Below are positions 10,005 to 39,467 of a stretch of 64,000 bases of DNA, piece by piece; position 1 is the first letter of the stretch; every line of letters starts with the position of its first letter. The stretch covers positions 1-64,000 of the forward strand of contig NZ_JASHIK010000025.1 of the NCBI RefSeq assembly GCF_030733745.1, written 5' to 3'. The stretch comes from Stappia sp. MMSF_3263. Lineage in GTDB: Bacteria; Pseudomonadota; Alphaproteobacteria; Rhizobiales; Stappiaceae. Position numbers and translations under genes: made by a program. The notes below the pieces were generated by a model. That model was not told the DNA's origin and ran no database searches. It saw only the letters and a program-made list of their open reading frames with translations.

Positions 10005-11210
10005 ATGCCCTTGCAAGACAACCAGAAGACCCGACGCCCGCGCCTCGCTCCGCCGCGCCGCACGGTGGCCGCCCTGAGCCTTGCCGCCCTGCTCCTGGCG
10101 GCAGCATGCGATGATCCGCGATTTCCTGCCTACTTTCGGTATGCAGTGGATGTGAAAGTCGATGGTGTGCCTGTCACCATCGAGCGGGTGGTGAAATGCA
10201 CTGGAACCCGTTCGTGGAGCACGTCTGCAAATCCAGGAGGCTGGACCCACCACAGCTACGTCAATCCTCCCGTATTAGGTGCCAAGGTTCCCGGCAGTGA
10301 TGCCGCGGTCTATGTCCGCGTACCGCTGGCGTGCGCCTGGGCAGCCAGTCCTGAAGGCGCGCAGCAGCGCCCCCCGCCTCTCGTTCCCAGTGACATCGTT
10401 CCGGTGCTGTGGACCGACAATTGGCAGCGGCTGGAGCAGATTGAATACTATTCGACCCGTCCAAGTCTTGCGGGACAGGACAGTCATGTGGAGTTCGTTC
10501 GCGTTCAGCCGCTGGAACGAGCGGACAAAAAGGCATTCGAGCTGTCTGAGGTGCGAGCCGCAAGGGAAAGTCCCGATCTGCGCCCCGTGGCCCGAGTTCG
10601 AGCGAAAGGACACGACGAACCCATCTCCGCCCCCTCGTGGCTGGACCCGGATCGACCGAAGACACCCGCACCCGGTATGACCTGCTTTGCCGCCCTATCC
10701 CTAGACCGTGGCAACTGGGACCAATGGCCGACGTTGGAGCCCTGGGTGGACAGCCTCCCGAATGACGGAAGATTTTACGAAGTCCGCAGCGCGTTGGGAG
10801 ACATCGCCACCAGCCTGAACTTTGAAGGAGGGTTCTTCGCTGCGCAAAGTCTGAACAGGACATCCTTGAGAGCAGAATCTACCTCGGAAGAAGGCGTGCG
10901 ACGGGCACTTCAACTATACAACTCCATGCACCCCATAGTTCCTAGCAGAGGCGGTGCATATATCGACAAGTCAAGGCAAGGGATCTCAAGCTGCTCGTTC
11001 AATTTATGGCACTATGATAGATCCTACGAGCACCATGTGAAACAGCCAGTCGGCGAAAGAAAAAATCGCAAAAAAATTGAAATACACTCAGACGCGAAGA
11101 GATTCGCGCTGATGATTGCGCCTGATAGAGAGTCGGTAATGCTTATTTTTCAATTGGGACCAATTTACTCTACTATGGACGAGCCCGTCGCCATGGACAC
11201 CATCGACTGA
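10005..11210 (+). CDS. Hypothetical lipoprotein, AT-rich, unknown function
   Basis: I do not recognise a family. The 401-residue product starts with a basic stretch (RRPRLAPPRRT), a hydrophobic signal and a lipobox-like LLLAAAC near residue 35, so it is probably a lipoprotein. The mature part has FRYAVDVKVDGVPVTIERVV, a TM-free body, a Trp/Asn-rich centre and two later Cys (CFAAL, SSCSF). Base composition drifts from genome-like at the 5' end to clearly AT-richer in the last 400 bases, with poly-A runs and codons such as ATA, AGA and TTA that neighbours avoid. That pattern suggests an acquired or fast-evolving gene. It converges with the GH25 lysozyme gene. The upstream ribosome site is weak. 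Confidence 0.75.
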   Translation: MPLQDNQKTRRPRLAPPRRTVAALSLAALLLAAACDDPRFPAYFRYAVDVKVDGVPVTIERVVKCTGTRSWSTSANPGGWTHHSYVNPPVLGAKVPGSDAAVYVRVPLACAWAASPEGAQQRPPPLVPSDIVPVLWTDNWQRLEQIEYYSTRPSLAGQDSHVEFVRVQPLERADKKAFELSEVRAARESPDLRPVARVRAKGHDEPISAPSWLDPDRPKTPAPGMTCFAALSLDRGNWDQWPTLEPWVDSLPNDGRFYEVRSALGDIATSLNFEGGFFAAQSLNRTSLRAESTSEEGVRRALQLYNSMHPIVPSRGGAYIDKSRQGISSCSFNLWHYDRSYEHHVKQPVGERKNRKKIEIHSDAKRFALMIAPDRESVMLIFQLGPIYSTMDEPVAMDTID

Positions 11211-11265
11211 TCGCGCGGGTGGAGCAGCCTCTGCCGCCCGCACCGCGCCCAACGTTCGCCCATAC

Positions 11266-11988
11266 CTATTTGTTCAACTCGCCCTTCAGCCACTGGCGCC
11301 ACTGCGAGCGGGTGCCGAAGAAGACGTTGCGGTCGACATTGCCGTTGATGCCGTCGACGCGGCCGGTCGCCGTGTACTGCCAGAACACCCAGTTCTTGCG
11401 CTTCTCGTATTTCCGGTCCGGGTGGCTTGCCACCGAGCGCAGCCAGAAATCGTAGCGGTGCTTGGCATCGACCAGCCGGTCGCGGTGGAAGTCGACGGAG
11501 GAATAGATCACCGGCCGCTTGCCGTAATGCGCCTCGACCGCTTCCAGGAACTTGCGCATGTCGGCGATCACCTGACCGCGCGGCGGCCGCTCGCGGCAGG
11601 TCTTGGAGTGGGCGTTCCACTCCATGTCGAGCACCGGCGGCAGCGCCTGCGGGTCGACCGGCACGTTCTGGATGAACCAGGAGATCTGCTCTTCCACCGG
11701 CCGGCAGAAATAATAGAAGTGATAGGCGCCGCGCGGCACGCCGGCTGCCTTGGCCAGGAGCCAGTTGTCCATGAATTTCGGGTCGACATAGTCGCCGCCC
11801 TCGGTCGCCTTGATCCAGGCGAATTCCGTGCCCGCCCGCTTCACCCGGTTCCAGTCGATATCCCCCTGGTAGCGGGAGACGTCGATGCCATGGATGGCGA
11901 AATCCTCCGGCGTCGGGTCCGGAAAATCGAAAGCCGCGCAGGCGGCGACGAACATCATGCAGATAGCGGACAACACGCGCGCAAACAT
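11266..11988 (-). CDS. GH25 family lysozyme lipoprotein
   Basis: A 240-residue glycoside hydrolase family 25 muramidase, predicted to cleave the MurNAc-GlcNAc bond of peptidoglycan. A signal with lipobox MFVAAC ends near residue 17, so the enzyme is probably membrane-anchored in the periplasm. The catalytic domain covers about 32-235: IHGIDVSRYQGDIDW, WIKATEGGDY, GAYHFYYFCRP, and PVLDMEW, which contain the acidic active-site residues of the family, and WQYTATGRVDGINGNVDRN near the end. GAGAG precedes the ATG. Such chromosomal GH25 proteins occur in other Rhizobiales without phage context; none is seen here. It converges with the orphan lipoprotein. Confidence 0.9.
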   Translation of the reverse strand: MFARVLSAICMMFVAACAAFDFPDPTPEDFAIHGIDVSRYQGDIDWNRVKRAGTEFAWIKATEGGDYVDPKFMDNWLLAKAAGVPRGAYHFYYFCRPVEEQISWFIQNVPVDPQALPPVLDMEWNAHSKTCRERPPRGQVIADMRKFLEAVEAHYGKRPVIYSSVDFHRDRLVDAKHRYDFWLRSVASHPDRKYEKRKNWVFWQYTATGRVDGINGNVDRNVFFGTRSQWRQWLKGELNK

Positions 11989-27593: not shown

Positions 27594-28688
27594 CTATTCG
27601 ATCCGGCGCAGATGGGCCCGCACGGCAAGGCGCGACGTTGCCGCGGTCAGCACCGTGACCAGGAAGATCACCGCCAGCACGCCGAGATAGCCGGCGACGC
27701 CGACCGACACGCCGCCGAACATGTCCATCGCCCGGGCAAGCCCCTGCAGGCCGGTGCGGTCGTCGGCGAGAAAGCCGAGCACGACGAAGACGAGGCAGGC
27801 GCCCACCCCGCCAGCAAGGCCGCCCTGCAGGCCGAGCAGCAGGAAGTGGCGCTGGAACTCGCGGGCGACGAAACTGTCCTCGGCACCGACGAAATGCAGC
27901 ACCTCCACAACGTCCCGGTTGCCCGCCATCGCGGCGCGGGTGGCGAAGACCACCGACAGCACCATAGACCCGAGCACCAGCGACAGGATCGCCAGGCCGC
28001 CGAAAACAACGGCGCCGGCCATCGCCGCGAGCCGGTCGGTCCACGATCCGTGATCGTCGATGCTGGCGCCGCGCACCACGGCGGAAACCGCCGCCCGCAG
28101 GTCGCCGAGTTCGAACCGTGACGGCTCGTCGATCTCGACCTGGATCAGGCGTGGAACGGGCAGGGTCGCAAGATCCAGTCCCTCACCCAGCCAGGGCTGA
28201 AGCAGGCCGCGGGTTTCCTCGTCCGACAGCGCCCGTACGGCACCGATCCCCGGTTGTTCCCGCGCCACGGCGATCGCCTTCTCGATCTCGCGCAGCATGT
28301 CGACGCCCTCGGCCGGGCGGATCTGGATCGTCACCTCGCGCTGCAGGTCGTTCGACCAGGCGTTCGCCGCCTCGTGGATGATGGCAACGCCGCCAACGGT
28401 GAGGCAGGCAAGGAAGCTCATGATCGCGACGACAAGCGTCAACGCGCGCCCGGCAACCGCCTGCGAGGGCACGATCGGCGCCGGCGAGCGCAGGCCCGAC
28501 ATCCCGCCGCGCGCCTTCGCCTTGCCGCGCAGCCGTGCCCGCATGGCACTGCCGGCACCGCCCGCCTTGCCGCTTCCGGCGCTGGCTCCCGGCCTGCCGC
28601 CACGCCCCTCGCGCTGCGGGCGCGGACCCTGCTTCGCGCCACCGCCGGGCCGCGCCGGACGATCCTTTCCGCTCCTGCCGTCAGTCAT
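27594..28688 (-). CDS. ftsX: Cell division protein FtsX
   Basis: FtsX is the membrane subunit of the FtsEX ABC-type complex that activates peptidoglycan hydrolases at the division site. The 364-residue protein has four membrane segments (about 85, 235, 290 and 335) and a periplasmic loop between the first two, with QREVTIQIRPAEG. Unusually, the first 70 or so residues form a Gly/Arg/Pro-rich, highly basic, probably disordered cytoplasmic extension (RPGGGAKQGPRPQREGRGG). The start codon overlaps the ftsE end by 8 bases, so both are co-translated. Confidence 0.92.
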   Translation of the reverse strand: MTDGRSGKDRPARPGGGAKQGPRPQREGRGGRPGASAGSGKAGGAGSAMRARLRGKAKARGGMSGLRSPAPIVPSQAVAGRALTLVVAIMSFLACLTVGGVAIIHEAANAWSNDLQREVTIQIRPAEGVDMLREIEKAIAVAREQPGIGAVRALSDEETRGLLQPWLGEGLDLATLPVPRLIQVEIDEPSRFELGDLRAAVSAVVRGASIDDHGSWTDRLAAMAGAVVFGGLAILSLVLGSMVLSVVFATRAAMAGNRDVVEVLHFVGAEDSFVAREFQRHFLLLGLQGGLAGGVGACLVFVVLGFLADDRTGLQGLARAMDMFGGVSVGVAGYLGVLAVIFLVTVLTAATSRLAVRAHLRRIE

Positions 28689-29340
28689 GGATGTGCAACC
28701 GTCCTTCGCCGAGTTCCATGCGCCGCGCGTCGACCTGGTCCATCAGGGCAAGATCATGCGTCGCGATGACCACCGAGGTCCCCAGCCGGTTGAGTTCGAT
28801 GAACAGGCGCAGCAGCCGGCGCGCCAGCGGCGGATCGACATTGCCCGTCGGCTCGTCGGCAAGCAGCAGTTCCGGCCGGGTGATCAGCGCGCGCGCGATG
28901 GCCGCGCGCTGCTTCTCCCCGCCCGACAGCACCGGCGGCAGGACATGCATGCGCTCGCCAAGGCCCACCCACTTGAGCAGCTCCACCACATCGGAACGAT
29001 ACTGGCTTTCCTCCTGGCCGACGACCCTGAGCGGCAGCGCGACATTCTCGTAGGTGGTCAGATGGTCCAGCAGGCGGAAATCCTGGAAGACGATGCCGAT
29101 CCGCCGGCGCAAGGCAGGGATCTGGCTCTTCTTCAGCGCCGACGTGTCCTTGCCGAACGCCCGGACGAGCCCGCGCGTCGGCGCCAGCGACAGGAACAGG
29201 AGACGCATCAGGCTGGTCTTGCCTGCGCCCGACGGGCCGGTCAGGAACTGGAAGGACTGCGGCCTGATCTCGAAGGTCAGGTCGCGCAGGACCTCCGGGC
29301 CCATGCCGTAGCGCAGACCGACATTTTCGAATCGGATCAC
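28681..29340 (-). CDS. ftsE: Cell division ATP-binding protein FtsE
   Basis: The 219-residue ATPase partner of FtsX. All ABC motifs are intact: Walker A GPSGAGKTSLMR near 37, Q-loop FQDFRLLDHLTTYENVALPL, signature LSGGEKQRAAIARAL near 141, Walker B LLLADEPTGNVD near 161 and switch His in IATHD near 196. The start is GTG (MIRFENVGLRYG), with GAGAGG about 10 bases upstream. A consensus CtrA box lies 46-60 bases upstream, suggesting cell-cycle control of ftsEX. Confidence 0.95.
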   Translation of the reverse strand: MIRFENVGLRYGMGPEVLRDLTFEIRPQSFQFLTGPSGAGKTSLMRLLFLSLAPTRGLVRAFGKDTSALKKSQIPALRRRIGIVFQDFRLLDHLTTYENVALPLRVVGQEESQYRSDVVELLKWVGLGERMHVLPPVLSGGEKQRAAIARALITRPELLLADEPTGNVDPPLARRLLRLFIELNRLGTSVVIATHDLALMDQVDARRMELGEGRLHIHD

Positions 29341-29385
29341 GGCAACCTCTCGTTAACACATTGTCCCGACACTATCGCCTCGCCA

Positions 29386-29401
29386 TTAACGCTTCATTAA
29401 C
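29386..29401. promoter_or_regulatory. Consensus CtrA box between ftsE and the zinc-ribbon-hpt-cpdR operon
   Basis: Two TTAA half-sites, 29386-29389 and 29397-29400, are separated by exactly seven bases (CGCTTCA) and followed by C, matching the CtrA full site TTAA-N7-TTAAC. A further TTAA occurs at 29353. The box is about 46 bases upstream of the ftsE start (minus strand) and about 186 bases upstream of the zinc-ribbon gene (plus strand). TTAA is scarce elsewhere in this GC-rich window. No binding data are available from sequence. Confidence 0.7.
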
Positions 29402-29586
29402 GATATCGGGGCGTGATGAGGTCGTGACGATCCGTGTGCGGTCGGCGACGCGGGAAACGCGCCGCCGTTTGCAGCATGTTTACGGACCATGGCCAATACT
29501 TGACCCTTTCCCGGTCCGGTATCCATGGCGGCAAGCATGCCACGCCAAGCCGGAGGTTTTGTGGGCAAGACGAGGCCTCTTCCACA

Positions 29587-30564
29587 ATGATGATAACCTG
29601 TCCGGACTGTTCGACTGCCTACCGGGTCAGCGCCGCCGCGCTGGGACCGGACGGGCGTAGCGTGAAATGCGCCCGCTGCGGCACGCGCTGGCATGCCAGT
29701 GCCGAGCCGGACACGACTTCCATCGAGACCGAAGTGCCCGACGAAGCGGAAGCCGAGGCGGAGGTCGAGGTTCTCGCCGCCCAGAGCGTTGGCGCCATGG
29801 CGACCGCCGGCGACGACGACCTTGACGGTTTTGCCGGCGACGAGGCGATGGATGAGGACGGTGGCGGGGACGCGGATGCAGGCGCGGTCGGCAGTGCGGA
29901 AGACACCGACACGCAGGGCGCCGACGAGACTTTCGGCCAGGACCTGATGCCCTTCGACGAGGCGGCGGACGAGCGCGACGCCGAGACCAAGAAAACCCCT
30001 GTCGATATTGAAAGTCTGGCCCGCAAACCCAAGATCCAGGTGAAAACCAAGCCGCCCGAGCCGGTGCTGAGGCGGGTCCTTGACAAGCTCGGCCAGCGGG
30101 CGCGGCGCGTCCGTCCGCAACGCGTCGTTGGCGCGATGATGTTTTTTGGCGCGATCGCGCTTTGCGCCTTCGCGGTGACGTTTCGAACGCCGATCGTGGC
30201 GCGGATGCCCGACCTCGCCGGCCTTTTCACGCTGGCCGGGCTCGACGTGAACCTGCGCGGCCTGGAGTTCCGCGACCTGCGCACCTTCCGCGAGATCGAG
30301 GACGGCACCATCGTTCTCGTGATCGAGGGCACGATCGAGAATATCAGCCGCCAGCCGATGCATGTGCCGGCGGTCAGGCTGGCGCTGCGCAGCGAGGACG
30401 CCCAGGAAATCTATGCCTGGATCATGGAGCCGCGCTTGCGCCGGCTCGATGTCGGTGGCACGACACGGTTCCGAACCCGCCTGTCGGCTCCGCCCGACCC
30501 GGCGGCCGACATCCAGGTGCGCTTTGTCGAGCGCGGAGAACAGCAGGCCAGAGTGAATGAGTGA
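29587..30564 (+). CDS. Zinc-ribbon (MJ0042) and DUF3426 membrane protein
   Basis: A 325-residue protein starting with an MJ0042-type zinc ribbon, ITCPDCSTAYRV ... VKCARCGTRWHA, whose two C-x-x-C pairs probably bind one zinc. A very acidic Asp/Glu/Ala-rich linker fills about 50-150, a membrane segment VVGAMMFFGAIALCAFAVTF lies near 190, and the rest is a DUF3426-like extracytoplasmic domain (IVLVIEGTIENISRQPMHVPAV). Function unknown. Two ATG codons are adjacent (29587 and 29590). It overlaps hpt by 8 bases, so the three plus-strand genes form one operon behind the CtrA box. The 246-base gap upstream has no gene. Confidence 0.85.
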   Translation: MMITCPDCSTAYRVSAAALGPDGRSVKCARCGTRWHASAEPDTTSIETEVPDEAEAEAEVEVLAAQSVGAMATAGDDDLDGFAGDEAMDEDGGGDADAGAVGSAEDTDTQGADETFGQDLMPFDEAADERDAETKKTPVDIESLARKPKIQVKTKPPEPVLRRVLDKLGQRARRVRPQRVVGAMMFFGAIALCAFAVTFRTPIVARMPDLAGLFTLAGLDVNLRGLEFRDLRTFREIEDGTIVLVIEGTIENISRQPMHVPAVRLALRSEDAQEIYAWIMEPRLRRLDVGGTTRFRTRLSAPPDPAADIQVRFVERGEQQARVNE

Positions 30565-31111
30565 CGACGCCGAAATCCGCACCCTGATCGACGAAGAGGC
30601 GATTGCCGCAAGGGTCGGCGAGATCGCCCGCGAAATCGCCGGGTCGAGCCCGCAGCGCCTGCTTGTCGTCGCGGTGCTGAAGGGCAGCTTCATGTTCGCC
30701 GCCGACCTGGTGCGCGCCATGCACAGGGTCGGCCTGCGCCCGGAGATGGAGTTCATCCATCTGTCCAGCTACGGCTCCGGCACGGAGTCAAGGGAAATCC
30801 GGGTTCTGCGCGATGTGGAGAGCGATGTCGCGGGACGGGATGTGATTCTCGTGGATGACATACTGGAAAGTGGCAGAACGTTAGCTTTCGCACGAGACCG
30901 ACTCACTGAGCGCGGCGCAGGATCGGTGCGCATCGCGGCCTTGCTCGACAAGCCGATGCGCCGCAAATCCGCCATTTCGGCGGACTATGTCGGATTCGAC
31001 TGTCCGGACAAGTTCGTGGTCGGATACGGGATGGACATGGGCCACAAATGGCGCCAGCTCCCGTATATCGGCTACGTCGTCCAGGATGCGCCGGCCCCGG
31101 CGACTGTTTGA
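30557..31111 (+). CDS. hpt: Hypoxanthine phosphoribosyltransferase
   Basis: Purine salvage enzyme joining hypoxanthine or guanine to PRPP. The 184-residue protein shows LLVVAVLKGSFMFAADLVRAM (within, near 34), the EFIHLSSYGSGTES flexible loop, and the PRPP-binding motif VILVDDILESGRTL near 98, where the Asp pair binds magnesium-pyrophosphate. C-terminal GYGMDMGHKWRQLPYIG holds the Asp that contacts the purine. Overlaps the zinc-ribbon gene by 8 bases and is 15 bases from cpdR. Confidence 0.95.
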   Translation: MSDDAEIRTLIDEEAIAARVGEIAREIAGSSPQRLLVVAVLKGSFMFAADLVRAMHRVGLRPEMEFIHLSSYGSGTESREIRVLRDVESDVAGRDVILVDDILESGRTLAFARDRLTERGAGSVRIAALLDKPMRRKSAISADYVGFDCPDKFVVGYGMDMGHKWRQLPYIGYVVQDAPAPATV

Positions 31112-31126
31112 AAAACGGAGTGGGAC

Positions 31127-31525
31127 ATGGCCCATATTCTGATTGCCGAGGACGATGAGGCGGTTCGCAGCTTCGTCAAGCGTGCCCTGGAACTGGACGG
31201 CCACACGGTGGTCGCCCAGGAGGACGGCGCCGCGGCCGCGGAAACGCTCGTCCAGGAAAAGGGGGCCTTCGACCTCATCCTGTCGGACATCAAGATGCCC
31301 GTCATGGACGGCATCGCCTTCGCCCTGATCGCCGCGCGGGACTATCCGCAGGTGCCGATCCTGCTGATGACGGGCTTTGCCGACCAGCGCGAACGCGCCA
31401 ACGGGCTCGACGCGCTGATCCACGACGTCGTGACCAAGCCATTCTCGCTGGCCGAGATCCGCAGGGCGGTCAGCGATGCGCTGCTCGGCATCTGCCGCGA
31501 GGAAACCCGCCGGCGCTACGCCTGA
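31127..31525 (+). CDS. cpdR: CpdR-type single-domain response regulator
   Basis: A 132-residue stand-alone receiver domain. Acidic pocket EDD near residue 8, phospho-acceptor Asp in LILSDIKMPVMDG near 50, Thr in LLMTGFADQRERA near 80 and Lys in VTKPFSLAEIRRAV near 104. The small insertion and MTGFA motif resemble CpdR of Caulobacter and rhizobia, which in its unphosphorylated form primes ClpXP to degrade CtrA and other cell-cycle proteins. It is the last gene of the zinc-ribbon-hpt operon, ends before a good terminator, and lies behind a CtrA box. Assignment to CpdR rather than a generic receiver is by similarity. Confidence 0.82.
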   Translation: MAHILIAEDDEAVRSFVKRALELDGHTVVAQEDGAAAAETLVQEKGAFDLILSDIKMPVMDGIAFALIAARDYPQVPILLMTGFADQRERANGLDALIHDVVTKPFSLAEIRRAVSDALLGICREETRRRYA

Positions 31526-38546: not shown

Positions 38547-38562
38547 GTTAAGACGGGGTTAA
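38547..38562 (-). promoter_or_regulatory. Consensus CtrA box upstream of the YjfB-like gene
   Basis: On the minus strand the sequence reads TTAACCCCGTCTTAAC: two TTAA half-sites with exactly seven bases between and a trailing C, the full CtrA consensus including the preferred CC after the first half. It lies 57-72 bases upstream of the small protein start. It is the only other full match I found in the window. Confidence 0.7.
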
Positions 38563-38585: not shown

Positions 38586-39467
38586 TCAGCGGGTAGGAAC
38601 CGGAACCTCGCCGCGATAGTCGTAGAAGCCGCGCTGCGTCTTGCGGCCGAGCCAGCCGGCCTCGACATATTTCACCAGGAGCGGGCACGGCCGGTACTTG
38701 GTGTCGGCAAGGCCCTCGTAGAGCACCTGCATGATCGACAGACAGGTGTCGAGGCCGATGAAATCGGCCAGCTGCAGCGGTCCCATCGGGTGGTTGGCAC
38801 CCAGCTTCATCGCCGTATCGATCGCCTCGACCGAGCCGACGCCCTCGTAGAGCGTGTAGATCGCCTCGTTGATCATCGGCAGCAGGATGCGGTTGACCAT
38901 GAAGGCCGGGAAATCCTCGGCGACCGCGATGGTCTTGCCGAGCGTGCGGGTGAACTTCTTGGCCGCCTCGAAGGTCTCGTCCTCGGTGGCGATGCCGCGC
39001 ACCAGTTCGACGAGTTCCATCAGGGGCACCGGGTTCATGAAATGAATGCCGATGAACCGCTCGGGACGATCCGTGGTCGCCGCAAGGCGCGTGATCGAGA
39101 TCGACGAGGTGTTGGTGGCGAGGATCGCCTCCGGCTTCAGCAGCGGACAGAGCTGGGCGAAGATCTTGCGCTTGATCTGCTCATTCTCGACCGCGGACTC
39201 GATCACCAGATCGACGTCGGCGAGCTCGTCCATGCTGTCGGCGGCGACGATGCGGCCAAGCGCCGTGGCGCGCTCCTCCTCGGTGATCTGTCCCTTCGAG
39301 ACCTGGCGGGCCATGTTGCCGTTGATCGAGGCGAGGCCGGACTGGATCCGGTCGCGGGAGATGTCGCTGAGCGCGACGTCGAAGCCGGCAACCGCGCAGA
39401 CATGAGCGATCCCGCTGCCCATCTGGCCCGAGCCGATCACACCGACCTTCTTGATATCGACCACCAT
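38586..39467 (-). CDS. hbd: 3-hydroxybutyryl-CoA dehydrogenase
   Basis: A 293-residue NAD-dependent 3-hydroxyacyl-CoA dehydrogenase, reversibly oxidising 3-hydroxybutyryl-CoA. The Rossmann loop VGVIGSGQMGSGIAHV is near 9, followed by TNTSSISITRLAATTDRPERFIGIHFMNPVP (conserved Ser and the catalytic His in GIHFMNP near 138), and the C-terminal dimer domain with GANHPMGPLQLADFIGLD. Length is that of the single-function enzyme. Downstream of etfBA on the same strand, an arrangement common in Rhizobiales; 213 bases with a hairpin separate it from etfA. Confidence 0.94.
   Translation of the reverse strand: MVVDIKKVGVIGSGQMGSGIAHVCAVAGFDVALSDISRDRIQSGLASINGNMARQVSKGQITEEERATALGRIVAADSMDELADVDLVIESAVENEQIKRKIFAQLCPLLKPEAILATNTSSISITRLAATTDRPERFIGIHFMNPVPLMELVELVRGIATEDETFEAAKKFTRTLGKTIAVAEDFPAFMVNRILLPMINEAIYTLYEGVGSVEAIDTAMKLGANHPMGPLQLADFIGLDTCLSIMQVLYEGLADTKYRPCPLLVKYVEAGWLGRKTQRGFYDYRGEVPVPTR

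Follow-up and report, generated by a model that had tools for sequence, protein, structure and literature searches.

Does a single CtrA site serve both the division genes ftsEX and the operon that diverges from them in Stappia sp. MMSF_3263, and does CtrA thereby control a factor of its own degradation? An earlier note on this DNA had proposed both, reading the gap upstream of ftsE as a promoter region shared by ftsEX and an operon of a zinc-ribbon gene, hpt and cpdR. The window analysed here is the whole stretch of 64,000 nucleotides that contains this locus.

The ftsE intergenic region

The division genes, the gap and the elements within it are as follows:

27594..28688, − strand: ftsX, permease-like division protein, assigned by best match and by position after ftsE; overlaps the end of ftsE by 8 bp
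28681..29340, − strand: ftsE, cell-division ATPase (TIGR02673, 283.1 bits; cut-off 264.85)
29341..29586, no strand: intergenic region separating ftsE from the divergent zinc-ribbon gene
29352..29357, no strand: extra palindromic half-site GTTAAC, 12–17 bp upstream of the GTG of ftsE
29372..29374, − strand: CTA (TAG on the ftsE strand), which may be part of an ftsE −10
29386..29401, + strand: putative CtrA full box TTAA-N7-TTAAC, TTAACGCTTCATTAAC, an exact pattern match

The best model match of ftsX, TIGR00439, scores 62.7 bits and is below its cut-off of 255. A pattern match confirmed the exact full site that the earlier note had placed here. Exactly 7 bases separate its two TTAA half-sites, and the box starts 46 bp upstream of the GTG of ftsE (first base 29340, − strand). 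CtrA half-sites have the form TTAAC with a TTAACCAT-like extension. The second half-site of the box, TTAACGAT, is directed toward the zinc-ribbon gene and carries the C after TTAA, as in the CtrA half-site.

TTAA is scarce in the window, as had been noted before, with 11 copies against 20.4 expected, and five of the 11 are accounted for by the two full boxes together with the extra half-site. There are two exact TTAA-N7-TTAAC matches (29386–29401, + strand; 38547–38562, − strand), compared with none in 100 dinucleotide shuffles. The second of these boxes lies between the ends of two convergent genes, ~24 bp downstream of the stop codon of a 3-hydroxyacyl-CoA dehydrogenase-like gene (38586–39467, − strand, named by eye), and has no obvious promoter role. 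All four same-genus relatives have the extra GTTAAC at the ftsE-proximal position. The 10 further family members examined lack it there, one of which (G230) has a GTTAAC 28 bp upstream of ftsE instead.

Conservation and loss of the box

Of 297 genomes of the order that were searched, 292 have ftsE, and 140 of these relatives were used. They consist of 30 loci, 80 among the further matches listed (ranked by FtsE score), and 30 added genomes chosen mainly for families otherwise missing. Some listed ftsE places, several of them close to contig ends, were left out of the sample, and two upstream stretches within it are short (L143, 406 bp; L135, 492 bp). Together with the window the comparison set comprises 141 genomes in 48 families, of which 22 are represented by one genome each.

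An exact TTAA-N7-TTAA lies no more than 250 bp from the start codon of ftsE in 71 of the 141 genomes and 25 of the 48 families. Other spacings from 0 to 25 occur in at most five genomes over the same distance, and 200 dinucleotide shuffles of the ftsE upstream regions produced the box in 0.6 genomes on average and never in more than four. No exact box was found farther upstream, either in the next 250 bp (0/139) or in the following 900 bp (0/139). Three families (f1, f32, f22) contribute 36 of the 71 boxes, and without them 35 of 100 genomes still carry one. The position is also conserved, with the first box starting 40–85 bp from ftsE in 56 of the 71 box-bearing genomes.

The family-weighted profile of these 71 boxes from 25 families reads TTAAC-N4-C-N-TTAAC(C/G)-N-T. 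At the unfixed positions, C follows the first TTAA at 72% and the second at 65%, and the second TTAAC is followed by C (52%) or G (32%), then any base, then T (69%). Most flanking positions carry less than 0.3 bits. As the bases left free by the search match the CtrA half-site, they count in favour of a CtrA box.

It could still be asked whether the site is a chance AT-rich sequence. Across the genome the exact pattern has 16 matches (12 places after merging palindromic doubles) against 14 for the reversed control, which is no enrichment and counts in favour of chance. The reality of the box instead follows from its conservation across genomes and families, and given conservation that is specific to one spacing in 25 families, a chance origin is scarcely credible. 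The box, its spacing-specific conservation and its profile together support the proposal of a CtrA full box in the divergent promoter region. On these sequence grounds the site is very probably a functional CtrA box, at which a CtrA dimer on two TTAA half-sites would directly control the promoter region of ftsEX and of the divergent zitP-like gene, hpt and receiver gene.

The earlier note had named absence of the half-sites in close relatives that keep ftsE and cpdR as a refutation. All 14 relatives in the window's family have the box, and in the alignment of the 15 family sequences 16 of the 19 invariant columns belong either to the box (12) or to the ATAT directly after it (4). Farther out the box is often absent although ftsE is kept. 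The exact box is absent from 70 of the 141 genomes and from 23 of the 48 families, ftsE being kept. Of the 36 named loci with ftsE among the matches of the receiver search described below, nine have the exact box and 27 do not; it is absent from the fetched named loci of Bradyrhizobium, Methylobacterium, Devosia and Bosea. When up to one mismatch is allowed, N7 pairs occur in 17 of the 70 box-less genomes compared with 0–12 for other spacings from 2 to 15. This is a weak excess of decayed boxes, and one-mismatch boxes add little.

Some of these gaps contain other elements. In family f25 (L024, L097, L105) a variant TTGA-N7-TTAAC lies upstream of ftsE in three of five genomes. Six Rhizobium-type ftsE gaps (L057, L189, L191, L196, L198, L199) share a second block on the hpt side, which consists of GCGAAGCATTAACCA, then a TTTACGACT-like stretch and GATTC (GANTC). 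Three of them (L196, L198, L199) have an additional one-mismatch box nearer ftsE.

CtrA in the genome and its candidate regulon

The earlier note had called for a search for ctrA, and the gene was found at G000:C49:146693–147367, its product having 95% identity to the CtrA query sequence. The 500 bp upstream of ctrA contain half-sites only and no N7 box with at most one mismatch. CtrA was matched in 59 of the 60 genomes searched across the comparison set, G008 being the one without a match. Loss of CtrA was considered as an explanation for loss of the box and was rejected, as 38 of the 39 box-less genomes searched encode CtrA. In one genome of family f34 (G033, locus L109, contig C46) the ftsE gap has an exact box, and ctrA itself (10611–11282, + strand) is located on its zinc-ribbon side, at ~1.9 kb from the start of ftsE.

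The surroundings of all 12 exact-box places in the genome were inspected, with gene family searches at seven besides ftsE. One box lies upstream of rpoD. Others are near the Grx4 glutaredoxin gene (grx4), pepA, the hemE/ppsR gap, a fliO-like gene (model score below cut-off) and a sensor kinase gene that matches the DivJ model best, though with a score far under its cut-off, and one is in the gap between a porin-like gene and glmM. The remaining places are three on contig C15 and the one at 38547 past a gene end. The box loci on contigs C24, C4, C3, C9, C7 and C49 of this genome (L129, L123, L124, L122, L126, L125, L130) form a candidate CtrA regulon. For both rpoD and ftsE, CtrA binding in Brucella abortus and CtrA motifs in Sinorhizobium meliloti have been reported (PMC3616915, PMC2877005).

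The divergent genes

On the far side of the gap three genes follow in the same direction:

29587..30564, + strand: ZitP-like protein of 325 residues, with an N-terminal MJ0042 zinc ribbon and a DUF3426-like C-terminus
30557..31111, + strand: hpt, hypoxanthine phosphoribosyltransferase (TIGR01203, 171.6 bits; cut-off 150)
31127..31525, + strand: single-domain response regulator of 132 residues, of an ftsE-linked family; not a CpdR orthologue

Since hpt overlaps the zinc-ribbon gene by 8 bp and the receiver gene starts 15 bp after hpt, the three are likely to form one operon. The genes and layout are thus as described in the earlier note, except that the last gene encodes a receiver that is not CpdR.

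The first gene had been described as an unknown zinc-ribbon membrane protein. The ribbon stands, with a match to TIGR02098 at 56.1 bits (cut-off 20.9) that is the sole match of this model in the genome. One hydrophobic stretch after a linker was seen by eye, and at the C-terminus DUF3426 (PF11906) scores 18.2 bits, below its cut-off of 27.7. The best solved structure is 2nb9 (E 4.7e-10), a 49-residue chain labelled 'Uncharacterized protein', which we take to be the zinc ribbon of Caulobacter ZitP. The ZitP zinc ligands are C5, C8, C28 and C31, W35 is needed for binding to PopZ, and a basic patch is formed by K18, R24, R27 and R34 (PMC5182065). The window protein has C5, C8, R24, K27, C28, C31, R34 and W35 at the same residue numbers; R27 is replaced by K and K18 by A, so with A at residue 18 the basic patch is kept at three of four places. 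These residues, together with 2nb9 and the MJ0042 match, sharpen the description to a ZitP-like protein, which looks like a polarity factor of the PopZ-binding type. The genome also has a gene matching PF10691, presumably the PopZ family, at 96.9 bits (G000:C48:154313–154516).

Zinc-ribbon genes are not found beside ftsE in every relative. Among 30 searched genomes without zitP at ftsE, MJ0042 matches were found in three, and away from ftsE in G060 only; the 3.1-kb MJ0042 locus of G060 has no exact box. The MJ0042 search misses weak ribbons, as G051 has no MJ0042 match, yet its gene has a weak Zn_ribbon_4. In families f22 and f15 the genes examined at the place of zitP (for example L013:688–1320, −; L057:2637–3341, −; L079:295–822, +) keep the DUF3426-like part, whose score is under the cut-off in the two f22 genes and exceeds it in the f15 gene. 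In these genes a zinc ribbon was not detected, and MJ0042 matched in none of the 10 genomes searched of the two families. Outside the order, Emcibacter sp. (L180) has ftsE, a zinc-ribbon match and a receiver of the linked type together without an exact box, and the gene neighbourhood may therefore be older than the order.

A receiver distinct from CpdR

The earlier note had proposed that CtrA drives cpdR from this divergent promoter and hence its own degradation. The receiver is covered by PF00072 over residues 4–115 of 132. Residue D54, which we take to be the phospho-acceptor aspartate, is invariant in 12 aligned linked receivers. The best NCBIfam match of the protein is indeed the CpdR equivalog model NF046022, at 91.6 bits against a cut-off of 180. 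The only gene of the genome above this cut-off is at C33:228006–228362 (204.9 bits), and no N7 box, even with one mismatch allowed, lies in the 500 bp upstream of this cpdR.

A search with the linked receivers as query gave 80 named loci among the matches listed. Of these, 37 (L165–L201) have 50–74% identity, and 36 of the 37 have ftsE in the fetched flank, the one exception (L169) lying on a 7-kb contig. Among the other 43 (L202–L244) ftsE is found in none; 42 have 36–46% identity, and the last one, L223, is a fragment of the linked type located at the end of a contig. Rhizobium sp. SL86 holds both kinds, one beside ftsE (L189, 107.6 bits) and one at 200.2 bits (L240). In a tree of 104 rows and 125 columns, from which the L223 fragment was dropped, 59 linked receivers including that of the window are split with 99/96 support from the other 45, among which are the CpdR-type rows and the genome's own CpdR. 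Inner forks of this tree are unsure owing to the few columns, and many are unresolved.

The candidate identity of the receiver as CpdR was rejected on its score, on the presence of the genome's own CpdR elsewhere and on the separate clades. By sequence, the ftsE-linked receivers are a family separate from CpdR, and the literature searched held no description of such a CpdR-related family; a search for CpdR2 returned nothing useful. As the receiver is not CpdR, the proposed feedback loop has no basis in the sequence. It has a counterpart in Caulobacter crescentus, where cpdR is directly activated by CtrA (PMC4433202). Against the score, the clades, the two paralogues of SL86 and the split of ftsE linkage (36/37 versus 0/43 listed named loci), however, such a loop at this promoter is very unlikely. 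Reports on cpdR in other species differ. Hyphomonas neptunium cpdR is reported as not CtrA-regulated (PMC7200025). In S. meliloti, CtrA bound the promoters of cpdR1 and rcdA, yet its depletion had no effect on their expression according to PMC4433202, the main text of which mentions ftsE 0 times. A box therefore need not mean regulation.

Which side is served, and how

The core link between CtrA and ftsE is already known from earlier papers. Bellefontaine et al. are said to have given the original report on CtrA at the B. abortus ftsE promoter in 2002. Later sources describe CtrA binding at B. abortus ftsE (PMC2877005; also cited in PMC3616915) and a CtrA motif at S. meliloti ftsE (PMC3616915), and list Agrobacterium tumefaciens ftsE (Atu3606) with a CtrA box (PMC7003649). 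This binding and these motifs support CtrA control of ftsE in the window. The likeness to B. abortus is a CtrA target upstream of ftsE; the window box is known from sequence alone, and its analysis adds an operon with a zitP-like gene on the divergent side and shows how broadly the box is conserved. S. meliloti shares the CtrA motif upstream of ftsE. Family f22, which is set beside S. meliloti and probably comprises the Rhizobiaceae and kin, has a divergent gene without a detected zinc ribbon and a box directed toward ftsE, unlike the window.

The evidence from the genomes bears on both sides of the gap. The distance from box to ftsE has a median of 48.5 bp (sd 35), compared with 100.5 bp (sd 88) to the zinc-ribbon start (54 genomes). 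This nearer and steadier placement would suit a box that serves ftsEX only, with the divergent operon as a bystander that has its own promoter. The box is moreover kept at ftsE in G046, in G017 and in eight f22 genomes with a neighbour lacking the ribbon, and the earlier published evidence found concerns ftsE. However, the box goes with a ZitP-like neighbour, being present in 61 of 102 genomes with one versus 10 of 39 without (kinship ignored), and the asymmetric flanking bases face the operon in 18 families and ftsE in three, with four tied. The same orientation score per box gives 47 toward the operon, 10 toward ftsE and 16 tied (73 boxes). Service to ftsEX alone is a serious possibility, with somewhat over one chance in three.

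The same orientation and association could also fit a box that acts on the zitP-like operon alone and leaves ftsE unregulated. Families that lack both the ZitP-like gene and the box fit this: none of nine f2 and none of three f42 genomes has the box, hpt or the receiver gene being beside ftsE and no ZitP-like gene detected, and none of three f16 genomes, in which none of zitP-like, hpt and receiver genes was detected beside ftsE. Against it stand the binding at ftsE in B. abortus and the motifs in S. meliloti and A. tumefaciens from the sources above, and family f22, which keeps the box in 8 of 13 genomes, directed toward ftsE, although the ribbon is missing. This alternative is distinctly unlikely.

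Control of both sides remains the preferred reading. CtrA would occupy the box as a dimer on the two TTAA half-sites, and both sides would respond, the dimer determining how active one or both of the divergent promoters are. No sigma-70 consensus turned up in a promoter scan of 29250–29650. The alignment of the 15 family genomes has A29374 invariant and T29373 at least 90% conserved. If this conserved TA (29374–29373, − strand), ~17 bases from the far half-site, is taken as a −10, the box would cover the ftsE −35. Phosphorylated CtrA would then sit over the presumed ftsE −35 region and upstream of the zitP-like gene. In this way the timing of FtsEX, which acts late in division, and a ZitP-like pole-organising protein would be tied to the CtrA phase of the cell cycle.

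Whether CtrA raises or lowers ftsE can be approached from A. tumefaciens, the only species for which such expression data were found. According to PMC7003649, a pdhS2 mutant has ftsE up by log2 1.63, the C. crescentus ctrA and pilA reporters down to 82–85% and the ccrM reporter unchanged; dgcB and Atu3318 are also up, and both are derepressed by mutation of their CtrA motif. Atu3606 resembles the window in its predicted CtrA box, and the shift in its expression with PdhS2 fits CtrA lowering ftsE. These data agree with repression of ftsE by CtrA but are no direct test, and repression is slightly favoured, at little better than an even chance.

C. crescentus provides a different comparison. It shares the ZitP zinc ribbon, and both zitP and ftsE are cell-cycle regulated there. 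The gene zitP is activated by GcrA (PMC5182063), and ftsE, which has a GANTC motif, falls without CcrM methylation (PMC3973325). Whereas control in C. crescentus runs via GcrA/CcrM, GANTC is missing from the gap in the window. Across the 141 genomes, base composition alone predicts a GANTC within the first 250 bp upstream of ftsE in 81, and 78 have one, which gives no sign of enrichment. GcrA/CcrM control as in Caulobacter was rejected for the window on these counts.

Significance for the order

A partial literature search, with supplements outside its scope, found no published description of the ftsEX/zitP-like/hpt/receiver arrangement. Other species had already provided the ftsE half of the finding; what is added here is the zitP-like half and a receiver family in its own right. 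The conservation of one particular spacing in 25 of the 48 families sampled shows that the CtrA–ftsE link is old and widespread in the order, with a ZitP-like polarity gene added on the far side of the same box. The tempting cpdR feedback loop is corrected, as the ftsE-linked receiver belongs to its own family.

A broader picture, speculative and rather unlikely as a whole, is that one CtrA box co-regulates cytokinesis through FtsEX and a polarity module made up of a ZitP-like PopZ partner and ftsE-linked, CpdR-related receivers. The receiver may be a pole-localised signalling protein or a ClpXP-type adaptor beside CpdR, and lineages would have rewired the switch by losing or inverting the box and retaining ftsE and ctrA. 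CtrA-encoding families that have the box and others that lack it offer natural pairs in which the rewiring of a core cell-cycle regulon may be followed.
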